Part shown: positions 9,359 through 55,280 of the stretch, piece by piece
How positions within the stretch are numbered: the first letter of the stretch is position 1
Layout: every line of letters starts with the position of its first letter
Assembly (NCBI GenBank): GCA_020725885.1
Contig: DYEA01000005.1
Coordinates: 1-55,280, forward strand
DNA: 55,280 bases
From: Slackia sp.
GTDB taxonomy: Bacteria; Actinomycetota; Coriobacteriia; Anaerosomatales; Anaerosomataceae
Direction of reading: 5' to 3'
Position numbers and translations under genes: made by a program
Notes under the pieces: model-generated
Database searches by the model: none
What the model was told of the DNA's origin: nothing
Seen by the model: the letters and a program-made list of their open reading frames with translations, nothing else

Positions 9359-10390
9359 CTACACGATGCGGACCGCTCCCGGGCGGCCCTCCACACACCG
9401 GCCGACAGCCACCGCATCTTCCCCGCGCACCGCCAGCGCCGCGAGCAGCGCATCCGCCTTCTCTTCCGCGACCGCCATCAGCAGCCCGCCCGACGTCTGC
9501 GGGTCCGCAAGCACGCCCTTCCAGTCGAACCCGGCCGGCCCCCAGTCCACCCACTCCTCCAGGAACGAGAGCACGTCTGCGGTACGCCCCGGCCGGACGC
9601 CTTGCCCCGCGTACTCGACGACGCCCGGCCACACCGGCACACGCTCCAGCTCGATCTCGACCGCCACGCCGCTGCCGAACGCCATCTCGCGCGCGTGGCC
9701 CGCAAGCCCGAACCCGGTGATGTCGGTGCCCGCGTGCACGCCGACTTCCTGCATCGCCTCGGCGGCGGCAGCGTTCAGGTGCGCCATGCTCTCGATGACT
9801 TCCGCCAGCGACTCCTCTGTCTCCAGCCCCTGCTTGAGCGCCGTGTTGAGGATGCCGACGCCGAGCCGCTTCGTGAGCACGAGCACGTCGCCTGGCCGCG
9901 CACCCACGTTGCGCACCACGCGGTCCGGATCCACCACGCCCATCACCGACAGCCCGTACTTCGGCTCCTTGTCGTCGATGGTGTGGCCACCGACGATCAC
10001 CGCGCCTGCTTCGCGCACCTTGTCAGCGCCGCCTTGAAGCACGCGCGCGGTCACCTCGGCCGGAAGCGAGCACGGCATCGCGAGCAGGTTCATCGCCGCA
10101 AGCGGCCTGCCGCCCATCGCGTAGATGTCCGAGAGCGCATTCGCCGCCGTGATGCGGCCGAAGTCGTACGGGTCGTCCACCATCGGCGTGAAGAAGTCGA
10201 CGGTGAGCAGCACGGCCGTCTCGCCAAGCCGATAGACGGCGGCGTCGTCCGACGTCTCGAACCCGACCATCAGGTCTTCGGAGCTGCCCGGCGCCATCTT
10301 CTCGAGCACGGCTGCGAGGTCGCCCGGACCCCACTTGGCAGCTCAACCGGACTTCGTCGACAGCTGCGTGAGGCGTATCGCAGGCTGCAT
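9359..10390 (-). CDS. selD: Selenide, water dikinase SelD, itself a selenoprotein (in-frame UGA at codon 16)
   Basis: SelD makes selenophosphate from selenide and ATP. An uninterrupted frame begins only at internal ATG 10309, but homology extends through an in-frame TGA at 10345-10343 to ATG 10390. The N terminus reads MQPAIRLTQLSTKSG, then U16, then AAKWGPGDL. This is the active-site position that is Cys or Sec in SelD, followed by the conserved Lys. Full length is 343 residues, normal for the family. Later signatures include VDFFTPMVDDPYDFGRI, GGHTIDD and DITGFGLAGH. A SECIS-like hairpin follows the UGA. Automated annotation would truncate the gene and lose the active site. It forms an operon with the YedF-like gene. 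Confidence 0.95.
10311..10342 (-). promoter_or_regulatory. Bacterial SECIS element of selD
   Basis: Directly 3' of the UGA, nucleotides +1 to +5 (GCTGC) pair with +28 to +32 (GCAGC). An inner 6-bp stem GGGGTC/GACCTC (+11 to +16 with +22 to +27, one G-U pair) closes a 5-nt loop CGGGC at +17 to +21. A hairpin at this distance from the UGA is what SelB recognises in bacteria. Confidence 0.8.
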
Positions 10391-10507: not shown

Positions 10508-11863
10508 TTACAGCCCCGCCGCGACCTCGTCGTCAGACGGGAACGGTTCGCTCGGGCGCGCGAACAGGAAGCCCTGCCCGTACTCGACGCCGATCTCGCG
10601 CAGCGCCGCGAGCTCCTCGGGGGTCTCCACGCCCTCCGCGACGAGCTTCACCCCGACCCTCGCGGCGAACGAGTGCATGCTCTCGACCAGTTGCCGGCGG
10701 ATCTCGTCGGAGTCGATCCCGCGGACGAGCGACATGTCGATCTTCACCCACTCGGGACGCACCTCGGCCAGGCACTGCAGCGACCCGTACCCGGCGCCGG
10801 CATCGTCGATCGCGATCGAGAAGCCGAGCATCCGCAGGTACTCGATCGTCGAGCGGAACGCGCAGAAGTCCTGGATGGCGGTGCGCTCGGTGATCTCCAG
10901 CACGATGTGCTTCGGCTGCAGCCCGGCCTCGGCGAGCAGCGACGTGAAGACGACCTCGCGAAGCTCGGGGTCGGCCACCGCCTCCGGCTCCACGTTGATG
11001 AACATCAGCCTGCCTCCGGGCAGCCCCTTGGCAGCCTCGAGCGCCCGCTTGCGGCACAGCCGCTCGAGCCGCACCACCATGTCGGCGTCGTACGCGGCCT
11101 TGAACAGCTTGTCCGGCCGCTCGAACTCGGTCGCCTCGGGGCCGCGCGACAGCGCCTCGTATCCGATCACTGAGAGATCGTCGAGCCGCACCATCGGGTG
11201 CACGAGCGTGCGCACCGCCTCGGTGTCGATGATCTCCTTAAGGCGCCGTCCGCGCTCTTCGGCGTCTTGGGCCTCACGCGCATCGGCCTGCGCGAGCGCC
11301 CGGTCGAGCGCGTCGTGCACGAGGCGCTCCATCCTGAGCTTCGGGTCGTGCTTGACGGTCGCAGCGCCCACGTAGCACCCGAACTTCACGTACAGCGCCG
11401 GGTCGAGCGTCGCCTTCAGCTCTCGCCGCACCCGCTCCTCGACGCGCCGGGCGAGCGCCATGAGCGCGTCGCGCTCCATGTGCTTGGTCGTCCGCGGAGG
11501 AGACAGAAGCACCACGAACGCGTTGCCCGAGATCATGAGCTCGGCGACGATGTCGGAGTCGCGCAGCTCCGAGCCGGTGATACGCTCGAGCGCGAGCGCG
11601 ACGTCGCGCATCACCTCGTCGAAGACCTTCCAACCGTAGATCTCCTCGATCTTCGAGTACTTGACGACGTTCAGGCACAGGAGCGAGATCTCCCCGCGCT
11701 CCTCAAGCAGAGACTCGATGCGAGGGAACAGCAGCGGCGTCGTCGGCAGGCCCGTCACCGGGTCGAACAGCAGCCGCTTCACCTCGGGATGCTCGGCGAG
11801 CACGTCGTGCAGCTCGAGCCACGACTCGAGCAGGAAGTCGTGGAAGTCGTGTCGGTCATACAT
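10508..11863 (-). CDS. c-di-GMP phosphodiesterase-like protein: degenerate GGDEF plus EAL domain
   Basis: This 451-residue cytoplasmic protein has no transmembrane segment. Residues ~30-190 have a GGDEF fold (FDPVTGLP start), but the signature position reads SGNAF near 112-116, so cyclase activity is unlikely. Residues ~215-451 form an EAL domain with key residues kept: Glu236 (YEALSRG), Asn in FINVEP, Glu in LEITERT, the Asp pair in IDDAGAGYG, WVKID, the Glu in VAEGVET, and GQGFLFARP. It should hydrolyse c-di-GMP. It is the last gene of a four-gene operon, 9 bp after the glycosidase-like gene. The degenerate GGDEF domain may act as a GTP sensor, as in some family members; that is inference. 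Confidence 0.88.
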   Translation of the reverse strand: MYDRHDFHDFLLESWLELHDVLAEHPEVKRLLFDPVTGLPTTPLLFPRIESLLEERGEISLLCLNVVKYSKIEEIYGWKVFDEVMRDVALALERITGSELRDSDIVAELMISGNAFVVLLSPPRTTKHMERDALMALARRVEERVRRELKATLDPALYVKFGCYVGAATVKHDPKLRMERLVHDALDRALAQADAREAQDAEERGRRLKEIIDTEAVRTLVHPMVRLDDLSVIGYEALSRGPEATEFERPDKLFKAAYDADMVVRLERLCRKRALEAAKGLPGGRLMFINVEPEAVADPELREVVFTSLLAEAGLQPKHIVLEITERTAIQDFCAFRSTIEYLRMLGFSIAIDDAGAGYGSLQCLAEVRPEWVKIDMSLVRGIDSDEIRRQLVESMHSFAARVGVKLVAEGVETPEELAALREIGVEYGQGFLFARPSEPFPSDDEVAAGL

Positions 11864-11872
11864 GCGTGTCGC

Positions 11873-13771
11873 TCACCCCAGCTTCGCGTACGTCACAAGC
11901 AGTGCCGTCGCCCCGTTAGCCGCAAGCGGGACCTCGAACTCGGCCGCCCCCGCCTCGACTTCCTCGCCGCCGCGGACGTCTGAAACGGTCGCCACGGTCC
12001 TGCCGAAGCGCAGCATCGTCTGCGTCTGCTCCGCATTGTGCACCAACAGCACTACGATGTCGCGCCCTTCTCCCAGGAAGTGGGCGATCTCCACGTCGGG
12101 CGCGCTGCACTCGACCATGGGGCCGGCTCCCGCGGCCCGCGCGACCGATCCGTACACCTCGCGCACGAAGGAGCGCACCGGAGCCGGCGTCGCCCACGGA
12201 TCGGCCTGGGCGATCGCCCGCTCGATCGGCGTGGCAAGGAAGACGGCGCGGCCTTGCCCGTGCTGACGCACGGTTGCCAAGGGGCTGCCGTTCTCGTCGG
12301 TAGCGACCACGAGCGCGTCTTTCGGCGCCAACAGCGCGAAGCACGGCAGCGGCTGTTCCGCGTCGAAGGACGCGATCGACCCGAGCACGCCCGGCTGCGC
12401 CACCCTGCAGGAGAAGCGGCGTCGCGGCCCATGGTCGCCCAGGAACTCGACGCCGAAGATCTCGCGGACGCCAGGGTCGGCGTCGCCGCCGCCGTACGAC
12501 AGCACCAGCGAGCCTCCTGCCTGCACGAACGCAGCGAGACGCCGCCAGGTCTCGGGCGCGAGCCGGAACGGCGAGGGCACGAACAGCGTCTGGTAGCCGC
12601 CGAGCTCGTCGCCCTCGCGGGCGACCGCGACCGGCAGATGCGCCTCTTTGGCCGCGATGTAGGCCTGCACGCAGGCGCGCGGCGCGTACAGCCCGGCGAG
12701 CGACGGCAGCGGCTCGTAGCGCTCTGCCGGCACCAAGACCGCAGCGCGCTCGGGAGCAAGCGAGAACTCGTCGAAGTCGATGGCGCCGACCGTCTTGGCG
12801 AACGCGCGAACCTCCCGCAGCGCCGGCTTCGGGGCCCCGGAGATGTCCGTCAACCCGACCAGCACCTCGAATGGGTCTCGGAAGTACGGCTCGCGACGCT
12901 CCGTCTCCACGTCCCGCCAGCGGCGAAGCAGCACGCCGCTCGCGCGGTTCATGAGCGCCGAGTACAGGACCGTCCGCACGTACGCGGCCTCTTCGGCGGC
13001 CGAGAAGTCCAGCGAGTGCACGCCGACGCCGTCGACGGTCACTGGCAGGTCGCGAAGCGACGCTCGGACGAGGAATCCGTCCACGTAGGTCGACGGGCCG
13101 GATGTCAGCGGCCCTTCAGCCAGGTACGCGCGGTACGGCGAGGTGAGGTGGCTCGTCGCGCTCTCGGAGAAGTCGATGGCAGGGCGCGCGTCGAGGCAGG
13201 TCTCGCGCAAGAAGGTCTCAGCATCGATACCAAGCCAGATGGGGCGCTCGGGATCCACCTCGCGGATCGCCTCGCGGAGCGTCCGCACCCACGCCTCGAG
13301 CGCCTCCTCGGAGGAGAACCCGGTGCAGAACGCCTCGTTCGCGAGATCCCAGGCGTGCACCGTGGGCTCAGTGCGGTACCGGTTCACGATCCGCTGCACG
13401 AGCGCGACTTCCCGCTGGATGAGGTAGTCGTCCGTCCGGGGATCGCGCTTCTTGCCCCACGGCACCGCCGTGAGCTCGGCGAGACGGTCATCGGCGAAGA
13501 AGCACGCCACGACTTTCAGGCCGCGCTCTTTGGCCTTCGCCACGACCCCGTCCAGCCGGTCGAACATCTCCTCGTCGTACTGCCCGACCTGCGGCTCCAG
13601 GCACCGCCACGACACGAACACCCGGACGAGCCACATGCCCGCCTCGGCGATGGCGTCGAGGTCTTCGGCGACGCCCTCCGCGTACCAGTCTTCCGGCGAC
13701 TGCCGCTCGGCCGACAGCGGATACAGGTCGATGCCCACGGGGAAGGCCCGGTTCCGCGGTATCGTGCTCAC
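11873..13771 (-). CDS. Clan-A glycoside hydrolase-like protein with probable altered nucleophile
   Basis: This 632-residue protein starts at GTG 13771, overlapping the TPR gene stop by 4 bp (GTGA) with GAGGAGGG upstream. The N-terminal ~310 residues look like a (beta/alpha)8 barrel of the GH5/GH42 clan. WRCLEPQVGQYDE lies near strand 2, and WDLANE carries the expected acid/base Glu. At the nucleophile strand, where PVxxEFG is usual, it reads VTVDGVGVHS, so the Glu may be missing. A middle domain of class I glutamine amidotransferase-like fold (TLFVPSPFRL, LSYGGGDAD) and a small beta domain follow, as in GH42-like proteins. There is no signal peptide. The substrate is unknown. Confidence 0.72.
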   Translation of the reverse strand: MSTIPRNRAFPVGIDLYPLSAERQSPEDWYAEGVAEDLDAIAEAGMWLVRVFVSWRCLEPQVGQYDEEMFDRLDGVVAKAKERGLKVVACFFADDRLAELTAVPWGKKRDPRTDDYLIQREVALVQRIVNRYRTEPTVHAWDLANEAFCTGFSSEEALEAWVRTLREAIREVDPERPIWLGIDAETFLRETCLDARPAIDFSESATSHLTSPYRAYLAEGPLTSGPSTYVDGFLVRASLRDLPVTVDGVGVHSLDFSAAEEAAYVRTVLYSALMNRASGVLLRRWRDVETERREPYFRDPFEVLVGLTDISGAPKPALREVRAFAKTVGAIDFDEFSLAPERAAVLVPAERYEPLPSLAGLYAPRACVQAYIAAKEAHLPVAVAREGDELGGYQTLFVPSPFRLAPETWRRLAAFVQAGGSLVLSYGGGDADPGVREIFGVEFLGDHGPRRRFSCRVAQPGVLGSIASFDAEQPLPCFALLAPKDALVVATDENGSPLATVRQHGQGRAVFLATPIERAIAQADPWATPAPVRSFVREVYGSVARAAGAGPMVECSAPDVEIAHFLGEGRDIVVLLVHNAEQTQTMLRFGRTVATVSDVRGGEEVEAGAAEFEVPLAANGATALLVTYAKLG

Positions 13772-14925
13772 GCCGAGCCCTCCTCGACGTACCGGTCGAA
13801 CAGCTCCCAGAAGGTGCCGAGCCGCTTCGTGTCGTAGTAGGCGGCCCGCCGGATGTGCCACTGCGCCTCCGCGTACGCGCCTTCCGAGAAGAGCACGGCC
13901 GCGAGCCCGAAGCGGGCGCGCACGCACGCCGGGTCGAGCGCGACGGCCGCCAGGTACGCCTTGCGCGCCTGCCGGTAGCGCTGCAGCCCGAGCAGCGCCT
14001 CGGCCAGCAGCACGTGCGTGAGCGGCTCTCCCGGCGCCGCCTTGGCGAGCGCGAGGAACACGCGGGCCGCGTGCTTGGCGAGCCCCGGCCGCTGCGCATA
14101 GGTGGTGCCGAGCACGTAGAGCCCCTCGACGAGCTCCGGGCTGTCTGCGAGGGCCCGCACCGCGCACGCCATCGCCTCGTTCATCGCCTCCTGCTTGAGG
14201 TAGCAGAACCCTGCCAGGGCCAGTGCCTTCGCGTCATTGGGGTCGTCGTCGAGGAGCGTCCGGACCACGTCCGCCGCTCCGAAGAAGTCCTCGGCCCTCG
14301 CCAGCGCCACCGCTTCCGCGTACCGGACCTCGCGCGGCGTATCCGGCCCCACGTCGCCGGACGGTTCCCGGTCCGGCAACCCGACGAGCGCGAAGAACAG
14401 CGCGTCCTGGCTCGGGTCGAGCGCGCCGGCTGCGCGGATCAACGGCAGCGCCGTAGGCATGCCCTCGCGCTTGAGCGCGTCGATCGCGAGGTTGTAGTGC
14501 GCCCGGGCCTGGTGCGGGTCGAGCTCGAGCGCCCGGCGCCAGCTGTCGCGCGCCTCCTCGTCGAAGGCCGCCGCCGAGAACGCCTCTCCGAGCTGCACGT
14601 GCGCGATCACGAGGTCGGGGACCACCTCCGCGAGCTCGTGCCACACCAGCACCGACTGATCCCACATGCCGCCGCGGCGGTCGTACGCGAGCCCAAGAGC
14701 CAGGTACGCCGGGCTGCAGTCGGGGTCGAGCTCGATCCCTTGCGTCGCGGTCGCGATGGCCTCGTCGTAGAAGTCCTCGCCCAGCAGCAGGTCCGCGAGC
14801 AGCGCGTGCGTCGCCGCATCTCGCTCGTCGATCGCGAGCGCCTCGTGGCACGCCGCGACCGCCTCAGCCACCCGCCCTTGGCGCGCGAGCCCCTCGGCGA
14901 TCATCGCCTGCTGCGAGCGAGTCAT
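13768..14925 (-). CDS. TPR-repeat protein
   Basis: This 385-residue protein is built of tetratricopeptide-like helical pairs throughout. Typical helix B endings (ALAIDERDAATHALLADLLL, GIELDPDCSPAYLALGLAYD, ALELDPHQARAHYNLAIDAL) recur about every 34 residues. It has no signal peptide or transmembrane segment and is probably a scaffold for protein contacts. The ATG overlaps the stop of the corrinoid-protein gene (ATGA) with AGGAGG upstream. Its own stop overlaps the start of the glycosidase-like gene. Such coupling suggests that the four products act together. Confidence 0.85.
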   Translation of the reverse strand: MTRSQQAMIAEGLARQGRVAEAVAACHEALAIDERDAATHALLADLLLGEDFYDEAIATATQGIELDPDCSPAYLALGLAYDRRGGMWDQSVLVWHELAEVVPDLVIAHVQLGEAFSAAAFDEEARDSWRRALELDPHQARAHYNLAIDALKREGMPTALPLIRAAGALDPSQDALFFALVGLPDREPSGDVGPDTPREVRYAEAVALARAEDFFGAADVVRTLLDDDPNDAKALALAGFCYLKQEAMNEAMACAVRALADSPELVEGLYVLGTTYAQRPGLAKHAARVFLALAKAAPGEPLTHVLLAEALLGLQRYRQARKAYLAAVALDPACVRARFGLAAVLFSEGAYAEAQWHIRRAAYYDTKRLGTFWELFDRYVEEGSA

Positions 14926-15584
14926 CGCCCGGCCTCCTGCTTGAGCACGTCGCGCCGCACGCGCTCCAGCACGTCGAGGGCGCCTTGCGCGGTCGATATG
15001 ACGCCCTGCGCGCCCACGCTGCGCGCGAGCGAGGGATCAGCAGCGAACGGCCCGCCACACACGAGCAGCACCACGTCAGCACGGCCTTCCGCGACCAAGA
15101 GGTCGCGGACCCCCTCGACCGCCCGCGCTGTCGCGAGCATTTCGGCGAACGCGATGACGACGCGCGCGCCCGTCTCCTCGACGCGCTCGAGGAAGTCTGA
15201 CGCGCGCACGTCCACGCCGAGGTCGAAGACGCGATAACCAGACTCCTTGAGCGCGCCAGCGATGATGTTCTTCATCACGCTGTGGCGGTCGCGGTGCATC
15301 ACGCCGAGCACCACGCCGACCCCTGTGTCCGGCCGGGCGAGCGGCGGCATCACGAACGACGAGACCTGCTCGGCGACCACCGCAGCCTGCGTGAACGCGA
15401 GCTCGTCGATCTCGCGGCGTGCCCAGGCTTCTCCGAGCATGGCGATTGCGGGCACGTACAGCGTGTCGAAGAGTTCCGACTGCGGCACGCCGGCGGAACG
15501 GACCTGCTCGACGACGCGGATCGCGGCCGCCGGGTCGTTGCCGGTGAACGCCCGGAACAGGCGCTCGGCCTCGCTCTCGTGCAC
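14922..15584 (-). CDS. Corrinoid (B12)-binding domain protein with variant DxHxxG motif
   Basis: This 220-residue protein has an N-terminal helical cap (residues ~1-85, with the GEAWARREIDELAFTQAA stretch common in B12-binding regulators and methyltransferase partners). A Rossmann-type B12-binding domain follows. The cobalt-ligand motif reads DRHSVMKN: the Asp and His of DxHxxG are kept but the Gly is Met. Later motifs include LGVDV and a CGGPF loop. GTG 15584 is chosen because AAAGGAGG lies 8 nt upstream; the open frame upstream runs through a tRNA gene. No methyltransferase or DNA-binding domain is attached. A light or corrinoid sensor role is possible but unproven. Confidence 0.82.
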   Translation of the reverse strand: MHESEAERLFRAFTGNDPAAAIRVVEQVRSAGVPQSELFDTLYVPAIAMLGEAWARREIDELAFTQAAVVAEQVSSFVMPPLARPDTGVGVVLGVMHRDRHSVMKNIIAGALKESGYRVFDLGVDVRASDFLERVEETGARVVIAFAEMLATARAVEGVRDLLVAEGRADVVLLVCGGPFAADPSLARSVGAQGVISTAQGALDVLERVRRDVLKQEAGR

Positions 15585-15655: not shown

Positions 15656-15742
15656 TGGTAGCGGCGGTGGGAGTCGAACCCACACGGCCTTTCGGCCAGA
15701 GGCTTTTAAGGCCCCCTCCTGTACCGATTCGGATACGCCGCC
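15656..15742 (-). tRNA. tRNA-Leu (anticodon UAA), CCA encoded
   Basis: A class II tRNA fold is visible on the minus strand. It has a 7-bp acceptor stem (first pair G-U), D-arm, anticodon loop CTTAAAA (anticodon TAA), a long variable arm with GAAA loop, and a T-arm with loop TTCGACT. Discriminator A and the genomic CCA end at 15656. The long variable arm and A73 fit leucine. The 5' end lies 1 nt after the ppx-like stop codon, so it may be processed from that transcript. Confidence 0.93.
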
Positions 15743-51987: not shown

Positions 51988-52686
51988 CTACTCTCTCCCT
52001 GCTTGGTTCGGCGTGGCTCCCACGAGCACCGCACGCGCAACGATACGGTACCGCGCGCTATACGGCGGGTGGCACGCAGTAAGCGTCAGCGAAGGCTCTT
52101 CGGTCGTTGCGAAGACCTCGGTCTGGTCTGGACGCACCACGAAGACCCGCTCCACTTCATAGGTGTACGTCGTGTGCGGCGCGACAAGCGAGATCCTGTC
52201 GCCCCGCTCGAGGCGGTCGATGCGGCGGAACGGAGCGCCGTACGTCGTCCTGTGACCTGAGATGCCGCAGTTGCCGGTGGGGCCCGGCACGTCCGTGTAC
52301 GGCGCCCAACCGGGGCCGAGCCGCAGATCGCGAGGCTCGACCCCCTTGACCACCACAGCGTCCAGACCGATCGCCTCGCAGACGATCGTCGCGAACGGCT
52401 GACCCGGCTTCAGGGCGTCCCAGTACGCTTTGTCGCGCTCCCACGCGCTGAAGTCCAAAGCGGCAGTCGCTGACGGCGCTGGCGCCGTCAGCGCGGGCAT
52501 CTCCGAGCGCAACGCGGCCTGCGAGCGTGCGGCAAGGCCGTCCGTGACGCCTTGGTAGGCGAGCAGACCGAGCGCAAGCCCGAAGAACCAGTCGCTGGCC
52601 AGCCTCACGACCGAACGCCGCCAGGCCGACGAGCGGCTGCTCGGCTGAGAAGCCGCTGCGGATCCCTGCGCGTCGCTGTCGTTCAT
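51988..52686 (-). CDS. Sortase (class D/E-like transpeptidase)
   Basis: This 232-residue membrane-bound Cys transpeptidase has an N-terminal helix (~32-48) that anchors it with the active site outside. The sortase barrel (~95-225) includes His145 in GISGHRTTYGAPF, Cys205 in LTLTACHPP and an Arg in YSARYRIVARA. These form the His-Cys-Arg triad. It should cleave LPxTG-type signals and join proteins to the wall. A candidate substrate with LPFTG is encoded at 53613-55280. It heads an operon with the epimerase and UDG-like genes. Confidence 0.92.
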   Translation of the reverse strand: MNDSDAQGSAAASQPSSRSSAWRRSVVRLASDWFFGLALGLLAYQGVTDGLAARSQAALRSEMPALTAPAPSATAALDFSAWERDKAYWDALKPGQPFATIVCEAIGLDAVVVKGVEPRDLRLGPGWAPYTDVPGPTGNCGISGHRTTYGAPFRRIDRLERGDRISLVAPHTTYTYEVERVFVVRPDQTEVFATTEEPSLTLTACHPPYSARYRIVARAVLVGATPNQAGRE

Positions 52687-52763: not shown

Positions 52764-52860
52764 GAACCCCGAAAAAGGCACCTCCGCCGAAAGGCGGACG
52801 ACGCAAAGCCACGGGTCTACAGGAGCGCCGCTCCCAGGACAGCCGGGCTGCCGAGGCAGA
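52764..52860 (+). promoter_or_regulatory. Cyclic di-GMP-I (GEMM) riboswitch
   Basis: The 5' leader of the metalloprotease gene has the GEMM-I core. It shows AAAAAGGCACC, a stem with GAAA tetraloop (TCCGCC/GGCGGA, 52793-52808), the near-invariant GACGCAAAGCCACGGG (52798-52815), then a second hairpin region and the family 3' part GGACAGCCGGGCTGCCG (52837-52853). These match the c-di-GMP-I aptamer. A strong terminator hairpin follows, so c-di-GMP probably controls read-through into 52953-53528. Whether binding turns expression on or off is not certain from sequence. Confidence 0.9.
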
Positions 52861-52875
52861 CGCGCTGGCACACAG

Positions 52876-52923
52876 CCGGCCCGAACCCTCAAGAGGCCTT
52901 CTCGGGGGGTTCGGGCCGGTTTC
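52876..52923 (+). terminator. Riboswitch expression-platform terminator
   Basis: A perfect 13-bp stem (52876-52888 with 52907-52919) is followed by TTTC, between the aptamer and the start codon at 52953. CGAACCC of the left arm also occurs at 52764-52770 at the 5' edge of the aptamer. Either copy can pair with the right arm GGGTTCG, offering an alternative fold. Confidence 0.75.
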
Positions 52924-52952
52924 GCGCTCTGGCTCGAAAAGGGGCGTTCGAG

Positions 52953-53528
52953 ATGAAGGCGATCACGAAGAGCCGCACACGGCTCATGACCCTCACGGCG
53001 GTCGCAGCCGCCGCCATCGTGGCGGCGACGGTGGCCGTCCTCCCGGGCGACAACGCGTCCGCCCGCCTGGCGATCGGAACGACGCTCGAGGCCGCACAGC
53101 CGGCTGTGCCGACAGTGGCGTACAGCGACGACGCGCTCGACCTCGGCGCTGCCGCCAAGCAGCCGACGCCGGTCGCGGCGCCTCAGCCGGCAAGTGCCGC
53201 AGCCCCGAAGAGGACCGCCTCCGCTCCGGCAGCCAAGCCCAAGACCGTCAGCACCAAGCCCACTGCGACGAGCACCGACGAGCTCGCCGAGGCGCGCCGG
53301 ATCCTGGCGGGCCTGATCGCGAAGTACCCGATCCTCAAGGGCACGACGGTGAGCTTCGGCGACACCAAGGGCTATCAGGCGATCTGCTACTACAAGTCCG
53401 GGCGGATCGTCATCAACCCGAATCACACGGCGAGCCTCTCCCGGATCTTGAACCACGAGGTGTGGCACATCATCGACTGGCGTGACAACGGCCGCATCGA
53501 CTGGGGCGAGAACGTCCCGCCGCGGTAA
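52953..53528 (+). CDS. Small secreted HExxH putative zinc metalloprotease under c-di-GMP riboswitch control
   Basis: This 191-residue protein has a signal peptide or N-terminal anchor (hydrophobic ~12-30) and an Ala/Pro/Thr/Lys-rich linker (~45-108). A compact C-terminal domain of ~80 residues follows, with NHEVWH (His168, Glu169, His172) followed by DWRDNGRIDWGE, where an Asp or Glu could be the third zinc ligand. I know no named family for it. The transcript begins with a c-di-GMP riboswitch and terminator. It lies between the sortase gene and a sortase-anchored protein gene, both on the other strand. Confidence 0.75.
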   Translation: MKAITKSRTRLMTLTAVAAAAIVAATVAVLPGDNASARLAIGTTLEAAQPAVPTVAYSDDALDLGAAAKQPTPVAAPQPASAAAPKRTASAPAAKPKTVSTKPTATSTDELAEARRILAGLIAKYPILKGTTVSFGDTKGYQAICYYKSGRIVINPNHTASLSRILNHEVWHIIDWRDNGRIDWGENVPPR

Positions 53529-53612: not shown

Positions 53613-55280
53613 CTACTCCTGAGCCTTCTTGCGGAGCACGACCGCAGCGGCGGCTGCAGCGAGGACCGCGAGCAGGACCAGGAAGCCATTGCTGCCAGTG
53701 AACGGCAGGAACGGCTCTTCGACCGTCACGCGGACCGTCCACGAGGACTCGTGGCCGCCCGGATTGATGACCGCGACGTTGCGCAGCACCGTCGTGCCTT
53801 CCGGCATGTCCTCGGAGATGCGCATCGTGTAGGTGATGGTCCGGGACTCGCCCGGCCCGAGCGGCACCGTGTCGATCCACACGATGGTGCCATCGACCAC
53901 CGTGCCGCCTGCCGTGTCGACAGGAGTCATGTACCGCTCGTCGTAGTCGTCCACGATGCGGACCGACTCGATGATACCGTCGCCGATGTTGGAGTACGTG
54001 AGCGTGTACGTGACCAGGTCTCCCGGCTCCGCGGTCGACTTGTCTGCACTCTTGACGATGTCGGTATCGGTGAACGGCAGGAACTCCTCTTGGTTGCCGA
54101 AGTCGAGGTCCGTCAGGGCGGTGCCGTTCGTCACCACGAACGTGCCATCCGGCGCGGCCGTCTGCGTCCAACCCTCCTGCTGCTCTTCGGCGACGTAGTA
54201 GGTCCCGGGGAGCAGCCCGGCGAACGAGTACGCACCGCCTTCGCCGGTCACCGTGGTGTCGTACAGAGCGAACCCAGGCGCCGGGTCAGGGACTGCAGCG
54301 GGCTGCATGCCGTCACCGCTCGACATACGGTACAGCGCGATCGTCCAACCGGGCAGACCGACCTCGCCCGGCGCGTCCCACACGCCGTTGCCGTCGTCGT
54401 CGGAGAACTTGTGGCCGGAGACGCTCGCGCTGTACGTGAACGCGTTGGTGGTATCGCCCTCGAGGGTCTCGCCCTCGGTGATTCCGAGCACGATCTCCTC
54501 GCCGTCCTTCTCGGCGTACCACGTCACCTCGCCGATCTCGTACGGATGCTCGACGTCGATGGCGGCGCTGTACGGGCCTGAGCCGACGAGGTCGAGCCGG
54601 ATGGGCTCGCCATTGACCGTCGTCTCGACGAAGAACTTCGCTCCCGCCGGAGGCGCGTCGAACGTGAGCTCGAACGTCTTGACGTACATGACCTTGTGGT
54701 TGCCGAAGTCGGCGGCCTCGATGGCGGTGCCGCTCTCGACGACGAAGTCGCCCTCGGGAGCGTCAGTCATGCTCCAGCCTGGCTGGCCGACCTCCTCCAC
54801 CCGATACGTCCCGGGCAGCAGACCGCTGAATCCGTACCAGCCACCCTCGCCGGTGACGGTCTCGGCGACCAGCGTCCACGCGGACGGGAGGTCCAGCGGC
54901 GCGAGTCCGTTCGGAGACGGGATGGCGAGCGTCAGCCGGTACAGCCGGATCGTCCATCCTGCGAGTCCGCTTTCGCCCTCGTCCCACATGCCGTTGCCGT
55001 CGAGGTCCTCGTACTTGTGGCCCGAGATCGAGCCGGGGACGTGCTCCCAGGCATTCGTCTTCGGGCCGGTGAGGGTCTCAGGGCCGAGGACGGGCGAGAG
55101 CGGGACCTCCTCTGTGCCTGCGCGCGCGAAGAACCGCCACGAGGCGATCGTCGTGCCGTAGGGCAGCACGACAGAGGCGGTGAACACGCCCGGCGCGGCG
55201 GACGGCGAAAGCGCGAGGTCGTGGGTGGCCGCGCCGATGGTGTAGCGGACGAAGTAGCCCGTCGCGGCCGGCATGCCGGA
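53613..55280 (-). CDS. Sortase-anchored surface protein with SdrD-B-like and DUF11 domains (5' end outside window)
   Basis: The frame is open to the window edge, so the N terminus is missing; ATG 55274 is probably internal. The visible part has two SdrD B-like repeats, each starting SGHKxxDxDGNGxWD and including a LPGTYxVEE- or LPGTYYVAEE-type strand (near residues 83-190 and 283-385). Beta-rich linkers with YSAAIDVEHPYEIG lie between them. A DUF11-type domain follows (KSADKSTAEPGDLVTYTLTY). The C terminus is a complete sorting signal: LPFTG, ~20 hydrophobic residues and RKKAQE. It should be linked to the wall by the sortase at 51988-52686. Pro-containing linkers could be protease sites. Confidence 0.92.
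   Translation of the reverse strand, partial: SGMPAATGYFVRYTIGAATHDLALSPSAAPGVFTASVVLPYGTTIASWRFFARAGTEEVPLSPVLGPETLTGPKTNAWEHVPGSISGHKYEDLDGNGMWDEGESGLAGWTIRLYRLTLAIPSPNGLAPLDLPSAWTLVAETVTGEGGWYGFSGLLPGTYRVEEVGQPGWSMTDAPEGDFVVESGTAIEAADFGNHKVMYVKTFELTFDAPPAGAKFFVETTVNGEPIRLDLVGSGPYSAAIDVEHPYEIGEVTWYAEKDGEEIVLGITEGETLEGDTTNAFTYSASVSGHKFSDDDGNGVWDAPGEVGLPGWTIALYRMSSGDGMQPAAVPDPAPGFALYDTTVTGEGGAYSFAGLLPGTYYVAEEQQEGWTQTAAPDGTFVVTNGTALTDLDFGNQEEFLPFTDTDIVKSADKSTAEPGDLVTYTLTYSNIGDGIIESVRIVDDYDERYMTPVDTAGGTVVDGTIVWIDTVPLGPGESRTITYTMRISEDMPEGTTVLRNVAVINPGGHESSWTVRVTVEEPFLPFTGSNGFLVLLAVLAAAAAAVVLRKKAQE

Follow-up and report, generated by a model that had tools for sequence, protein, structure and literature searches.

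The 55,280-nt stretch of contig DYEA01000005.1 considered in this study (referred to as the window, with coordinates counted from its first base) originates from the order Anaerosomatales (class Coriobacteriia, phylum Actinomycetota) and contains, on its minus strand, an operon of four genes encoding, in order, a cobalamin-binding protein (B12), a tetratricopeptide repeat protein (TPR), a glycoside hydrolase-like protein (GH) and an EAL-domain protein (EAL) predicted to act on cyclic di-GMP (c-di-GMP) (Table 1). In the window, the B12/TPR and TPR/GH junctions are 4-bp overlaps and the GH/EAL junction is a 9-bp gap, with a Shine-Dalgarno sequence, AAGGAGGT, upstream of the GTG start of the B12 gene. 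The overlapping four-gene operon proposed in the initial annotation of this DNA is borne out by the coordinates, the junctions (-4/-4/+9) and the conserved gene order, as are its named folds (B12, TPR, clan-A glycosidase and EAL) by Pfam. In the closely related pairs for which it was calculated, the ratio of nonsynonymous to synonymous substitution rates (dN/dS) ranged from 0.06 to 0.16 for each of the four genes; therefore, all four are under purifying selection in these pairs. Across the Anaerosomatales the operon is close to universal and is conserved as one unit, which suggests an undescribed signalling device.

Table 1. Genes of the operon and its immediate flanks, in window coordinates.
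Feature	Coordinates	Strand	Details
B12, cobalamin-binding protein, helical cap + Rossmann domain	14922..15584	-	220 aa, GTG start; Pfam B12-binding E=7e-14
TPR, tetratricopeptide protein, presumed adaptor	13768..14925	-	385 aa; Pfam TPR_11 E=2e-23 + other TPR models
GH, clan GH-A/GH42-like three-domain protein, probable pseudo-glycosidase	11873..13771	-	632 aa, GTG start; Pfam GH5/cellulase E=1e-11, GH42, GH42M
EAL, degenerate GGDEF + EAL, predicted c-di-GMP phosphodiesterase	10508..11863	-	451 aa; Pfam EAL E=1e-49, GGDEF E=4e-10
tRNA-Leu(UAA), upstream operon flank	15656..15742	-	ARAGORN
selD, downstream flank, outside operon unit	9359..10309	-	Pfam AIRS/AIRS_C; synteny

With GH as the anchor, 61 genomes were compared, comprising that of the window and those of its 60 nearest relatives, and 54 of them have an ortholog. 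In the class-level sample, GH matches came from 59 genomes, every one of them in the Anaerosomatales; outside that order the class sample gave no ortholog and a single marginal match (E=7e-4). A phylum sample of 396 genomes contained two distant GH homologs outside the window's genus (E=1e-38 and 3e-48), both near transporter-like genes and without B12, TPR or EAL, and no B12 ortholog. B12 orthologs score approximately 1e-108 within the order and 2e-27 at best outside it, where homologs share approximately 22-42% identity with the B12 protein; the 17 outside-order B12 loci that were read had no TPR or GH alongside within their short flanks (approximately 1.5 kb or less). No relative of the GH protein was found among viral contigs.

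The B12-TPR-GH order was unbroken in 40 wide loci and the window wherever the contig was long enough, with junctions that were often -1 or -4 bp. In total, 42 placed loci have the three genes in order (two of them truncated at contig ends), EAL is kept in most, and no complete locus retained just part of B12-TPR-GH. TPR orthologs are present at 52-89% identity in every intact locus, residues 73-115 being a strongly conserved stretch of the protein, and a genome from the window's genus (G001; L, G and g numbers denote the loci, genomes and genera compared) shares 86-92% protein identity with the window proteins. The initial annotation had tied its reading to the four genes being conserved together, and this neighbourhood comparison did not refute it. 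One bin, G024 (77% complete, 5% contaminated), carries two divergent operon copies, L068 on contig C84 and L069 on contig C32, for which a mixed bin is more likely than a duplication.

The wider neighbourhood is also syntenic, with mazG-eno-pyk-ftsB-ppx-tRNA-Leu upstream and selD-selA-selB downstream, and tRNA-Leu(UAA) was in the same position in 20/20 loci scanned, operon-less loci included. A scan of this GC-rich region for promoters and terminators found nothing and was uninformative. In genera g22 (five genomes) and g33 (one genome), the run from ppx to tRNA-Leu continues with selD, and none of the four genes is present; in L141 and L145, both from one of these lineages, the empty site between tRNA-Leu and selD measures only 173 and 201 bp. 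According to a midpoint-rooted tree of six flanking proteins, the g22 and g33 losses are nested separately among operon carriers; all four genes have been lost in at least two lineages, with the flanks kept. TPR orthologs are absent genome-wide from six operon-less genomes, a search in which the positive controls worked, and GH orthologs are likewise absent; G040 and G045 lack both genome-wide, again with working positive controls. Because the surroundings are syntenic as well, these joint losses are stronger evidence of linkage than gene order, and they support functional coupling, short of proof. Loss of the operon does not amount to loss of c-di-GMP signalling, as the operon-less genomes still have 6-16 GGDEF matches, and its equation with loss of all B12-binding proteins was not supported either. 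Unrelated sequence fills the interval between tRNA-Leu and selD in two other operon-less loci; judged by eye, L142 has a pterin-synthase-like gene there and L144 has glycosyltransferase/GtrA-like genes.

Within the unit, B12-TPR-GH forms the core and EAL is a frequent, dispensable fourth member, an optional output. EAL is missing with the trio kept in L043, in the clade of L048, L049, L059 and L060, and in L053 and L065, the last showing TPR and GH only. The first two cases are true losses, since they are nested in the tree; for L053/L065, EAL may have been either lost or ancestrally absent, the tree being midpoint-rooted. The joint four-gene set of the initial annotation is therefore a conserved operon whose fourth gene, as was missed there, can go while the trio stays. 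The EAL ortholog was found only at this operon locus, and in the EAL-less genomes no ortholog (800+ bits) was found elsewhere, just paralogs at 35-135 bits. In the window's genome, with 12 GGDEF and 2 EAL matches, the operon EAL is one of two EAL proteins.

These absences favour an explanation that is possible, though on balance doubtful, in which the B12-TPR-GH trio functions by itself and has nothing to do with c-di-GMP, serving for instance as a scaffold that senses a cofactor or a glycan for enzymes of the cell envelope or of metabolism. EAL would then be a neighbour transcribed along with the trio, receiving a separate input via the degenerate GGDEF domain. In addition to the intact trio in EAL-less loci and the lack of an EAL ortholog elsewhere in their genomes, the junction with EAL is on average less tight than the others, ranging from overlap up to +156 bp. 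However, EAL disappeared along with the trio wherever the whole block was lost, most loci have it, and other EAL proteins could substitute in the EAL-less lineages.

The EAL protein itself is probably active as a c-di-GMP phosphodiesterase, a prediction made because all of the EAL catalytic residues checked (E236, N290, E323, D353, D354, K374, E410 and Q430) are invariant in 33/33 orthologs. The initial annotation correctly named the EAL fold and did not mention the GGDEF domain. In all 33 orthologs the GGDEF signature reads [SA]G[NS][AS][FL] in place of the GG[DE]EF active-site motif of diguanylate cyclases, and the GGDEF half is predicted to be inactive as a cyclase and perhaps nucleotide-sensing. 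Composite GGDEF(degenerate)-EAL phosphodiesterases, of which Caulobacter PdeA is an example, likewise have a degenerate GGDEF before a complete EAL domain; unlike PdeA-type proteins, the operon EAL protein carries neither a membrane sensor nor a PAS sensor, and its input would presumably come from its operon partners.

The GH protein has the fold of a glycosidase and, in most members, an incomplete active site. Its AlphaFold2 model (predicted local distance difference test, pLDDT, 85) matches GH5_18 and Op5Man5 mannosidases with Z ~30 and GH42/GH164 over the full length, and no signal peptide was evident by eye. The clan-A fold given by the initial annotation holds, whereas the loss of the nucleophile in most members was missed there. 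The acid/base Glu on strand 4 of the TIM barrel is present (N-E motif, E146 in 41/41 orthologs), as is an invariant D247 (41/41). Alignment with 7bob (Glu of LQEFG) and with the L122/L123 homologs (Glu of LEEFG) places the strand-7 nucleophile at position 248, which holds Gly in 21 orthologs (the window included), Asp in 16, Glu in 3 and Ala in 1, so that the nucleophile Glu characteristic of clan GH-A is lost in 38/41. Because of this loss in most members, the protein is probably a cytoplasmic pseudo-glycosidase. It shares with GH5_18/Op5Man5-like beta-mannosidases and GH42 beta-galactosidases the TIM barrel, the GATase-like middle domain, the C-terminal beta domain and the acid/base Glu; unlike these enzymes, it has an Arg-rich beta-8 loop in addition to the lost nucleophile, and no sugar-uptake genes are among the operon's conserved neighbours. 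Two distant homologs from large-genome Actinomycetota (L122:7913-9853 and L123:8951-11179) keep the EE nucleophile region, lie beside transporter-like genes and look like active relatives.

It is improbable that GH is instead an active cytoplasmic glycosidase of altered mechanism (with Asp247 or Asp248 as the nucleophile, or substrate-assisted), co-regulated by B12 and c-di-GMP and trimming a cytoplasmic glycan or glycolipid precursor. The invariance of E146 and D247, the strong purifying selection, the full GH42-like domain set and the Glu at position 248 in 3/41 orthologs would agree with activity, but Gly occupies the nucleophile position in 21/41, the WNNTDY of the outgroup beta-8 region is replaced by RR-x-RD in the operon GH, and the described family is asaccharolytic. 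Separately, the idea that only EAL-less members retain the nucleophile Glu was rejected, as the Glu carriers L055, L062 and L064 all have EAL.

For the B12 protein, both the sequence and the structure model (pLDDT 91) display the features of the cobalamin-binding superfamily, namely a helical cap, a Rossmann domain and a His expected to ligate cobalt. The Rossmann part superimposes on 4jgi/1y80 with Z ~20.5 and a root mean square deviation of 1.5-1.6 over 124 residues, and profile matches include MttC (7xcn, E=4.5e-20) and 1y80 (E=1.3e-16). D99, H101 and W54 are invariant in 37/37 orthologs and the E/DxH lower-ligand motif is present, whereas the Gly of DxHxxG is not kept, position 104 varying among the orthologs. 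The nearest relatives by profile and fold are methyltransferase corrinoid proteins (MttC, MtmC and the Moorella factor IIIm protein 1y80) and the Desulfitobacterium cobalamin protein 4jgi; compared with the methyltransferase corrinoid proteins, the operon protein has DxH rather than DxHxxG.

The same cap and Rossmann architecture, with DxH, is tied to c-di-GMP turnover in photocobilin-diguanylate cyclase fusions (AbDPcob; PMC10979010) and in other fusions of B12 photoreceptors with c-di-GMP enzymes (PMC11796333). Unlike the AbDPcob-type fusions, the operon encodes separate proteins, with an EAL in place of a cyclase and with TPR and pseudo-glycosidase partners, and it has neither the EH motif nor a globin/bilin domain. 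A light-gated module acting on c-di-GMP (green-light, adenosylcobalamin), photocobilin-like but in trans, would be in keeping with photocobilins, in which this B12 fold is joined to a diguanylate cyclase (PMC10979010), with the fold similarity to 8j2w, 8j2y and 8jbs and with the conserved W54. However, the W...EH signature that marks CarH-like and photocobilin receptors (PMC10979010, PMC11796333) is not retained: within W-x9-EH, positions 64-65 are F/L and T/A in 37/37 orthologs. The light responsiveness raised in the initial annotation is not supported, because this EH motif of CarH/photocobilin sensors is missing, and the described isolates are non-motile strict anaerobes of subsurface sites (PMC9686372). 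With the bilin-binding globin domain also lacking, very little weight can be given to a photoreceptor here.

Equally far-fetched is a corrinoid-dependent methyltransferase with the GH-fold TIM barrel in place of the MtxB barrel: among corrinoid proteins, those of methyltransferases score closest by profile, and the partners of such proteins are TIM barrels, but no methyltransferase or reductive activator was found among the conserved neighbours (~15-20 kb, ~40 loci), the DxHxxG Gly is not kept, and TPR and EAL partners are not expected.

Combined with the conservation and residue patterns observed, these features lead us to favour, tentatively, the view that the operon is specific to this order and encodes a cytoplasmic complex that would sense cobalamin and a ligand and would lower c-di-GMP in most members; the formation of the complex, the identity of the ligand and the regulation are what we infer. 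The B12 protein would bind cobalamin base-off/His-on through H101 and report cofactor status, the pseudo-glycosidase would bind a sugar-like ligand without cleaving it, and the TPR protein would bridge the two. Where EAL is present, the complex would set its phosphodiesterase activity, and the resulting lower c-di-GMP would perhaps make cells less inclined to attachment, pili or matrix. In EAL-less loci, the trio would have a different target or work through a different c-di-GMP enzyme. In its most specific form, with a non-photochemical cobalamin sensor and a dead glycosidase, bridged by TPR, jointly reading B12 status and a sugar-like ligand and setting c-di-GMP via the separate EAL, the proposal is unlikely. 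The relatives described so far come from subsurface sites and are strict anaerobes, piliated but non-motile, in an asaccharolytic family, and Parvivirga hydrogeniphila requires vitamins, clusters on and attaches to ferrihydrite, and makes a dense matrix (PMC9686372). The asaccharolytic family and the vitamin need of Parvivirga count in favour of the sensing complex, and a vitamin-linked attachment switch would fit. The exopolysaccharide link suggested in the initial annotation found no support in the gene neighbourhood.

Several points weigh against the sensing complex. A single deletion could remove functionally unlinked neighbours, the surroundings being syntenic too; the loss of EAL in at least two nested lineages implies that control of this EAL is not the whole function of the trio, or not its function at all; and the GGDEF matches of the operon-less genomes indicate that the trio is dispensable for c-di-GMP signalling. 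Additionally, three of the 41 GH orthologs keep the nucleophile Glu, and complex formation, cobalamin binding, ligand binding and c-di-GMP hydrolysis are predictions from sequence.

No description of the B12, TPR, GH and EAL combination was found in the literature searched, the coverage of which was partial. Light receptors already provide examples of B12-linked c-di-GMP control; a version that works in trans and in the dark, if true, would make vitamin status another possible input to c-di-GMP and would place an unusual glycosidase pseudo-enzyme in signalling. The system is nearly universal in an order of mostly uncultured, little-studied subsurface bacteria, and the cultured Parvivirga hydrogeniphila appears congeneric with the window, making the system testable.

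A c-di-GMP-I-GGC riboswitch lies elsewhere in the window, at 52768-52856 on the plus strand (RF03167, 62.8 bits). The initial annotation had suggested a link between this riboswitch and the operon through c-di-GMP; the riboswitch is real and a link via cellular c-di-GMP is possible, but an obligate tie is not supported because the operon-less genomes G040 and G051 keep a match. Across the order, a match was present in 11/12 genomes tested, usually once, and passed Rfam's own cut-off in 5/12. Downstream of the riboswitch is a small protein, predicted to be secreted, that carries an HExxH motif (HEVWHIIDW) and has no Pfam match, the unit spanning 52768-53528 (+), and a HE[VI]xHxIDW motif lies downstream of the riboswitch match in 8/12 loci read across the order. 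Beside this unit, at 51988-52686 (-) and 53613-55274 (-), are a sortase and a SdrD_B/SpaA surface protein with an LPFTG anchor. The arrangement recalls C. difficile, in which a c-di-GMP riboswitch controls PPEP-1, a protease that releases surface proteins (PMC6366702), and may constitute a separate finding.

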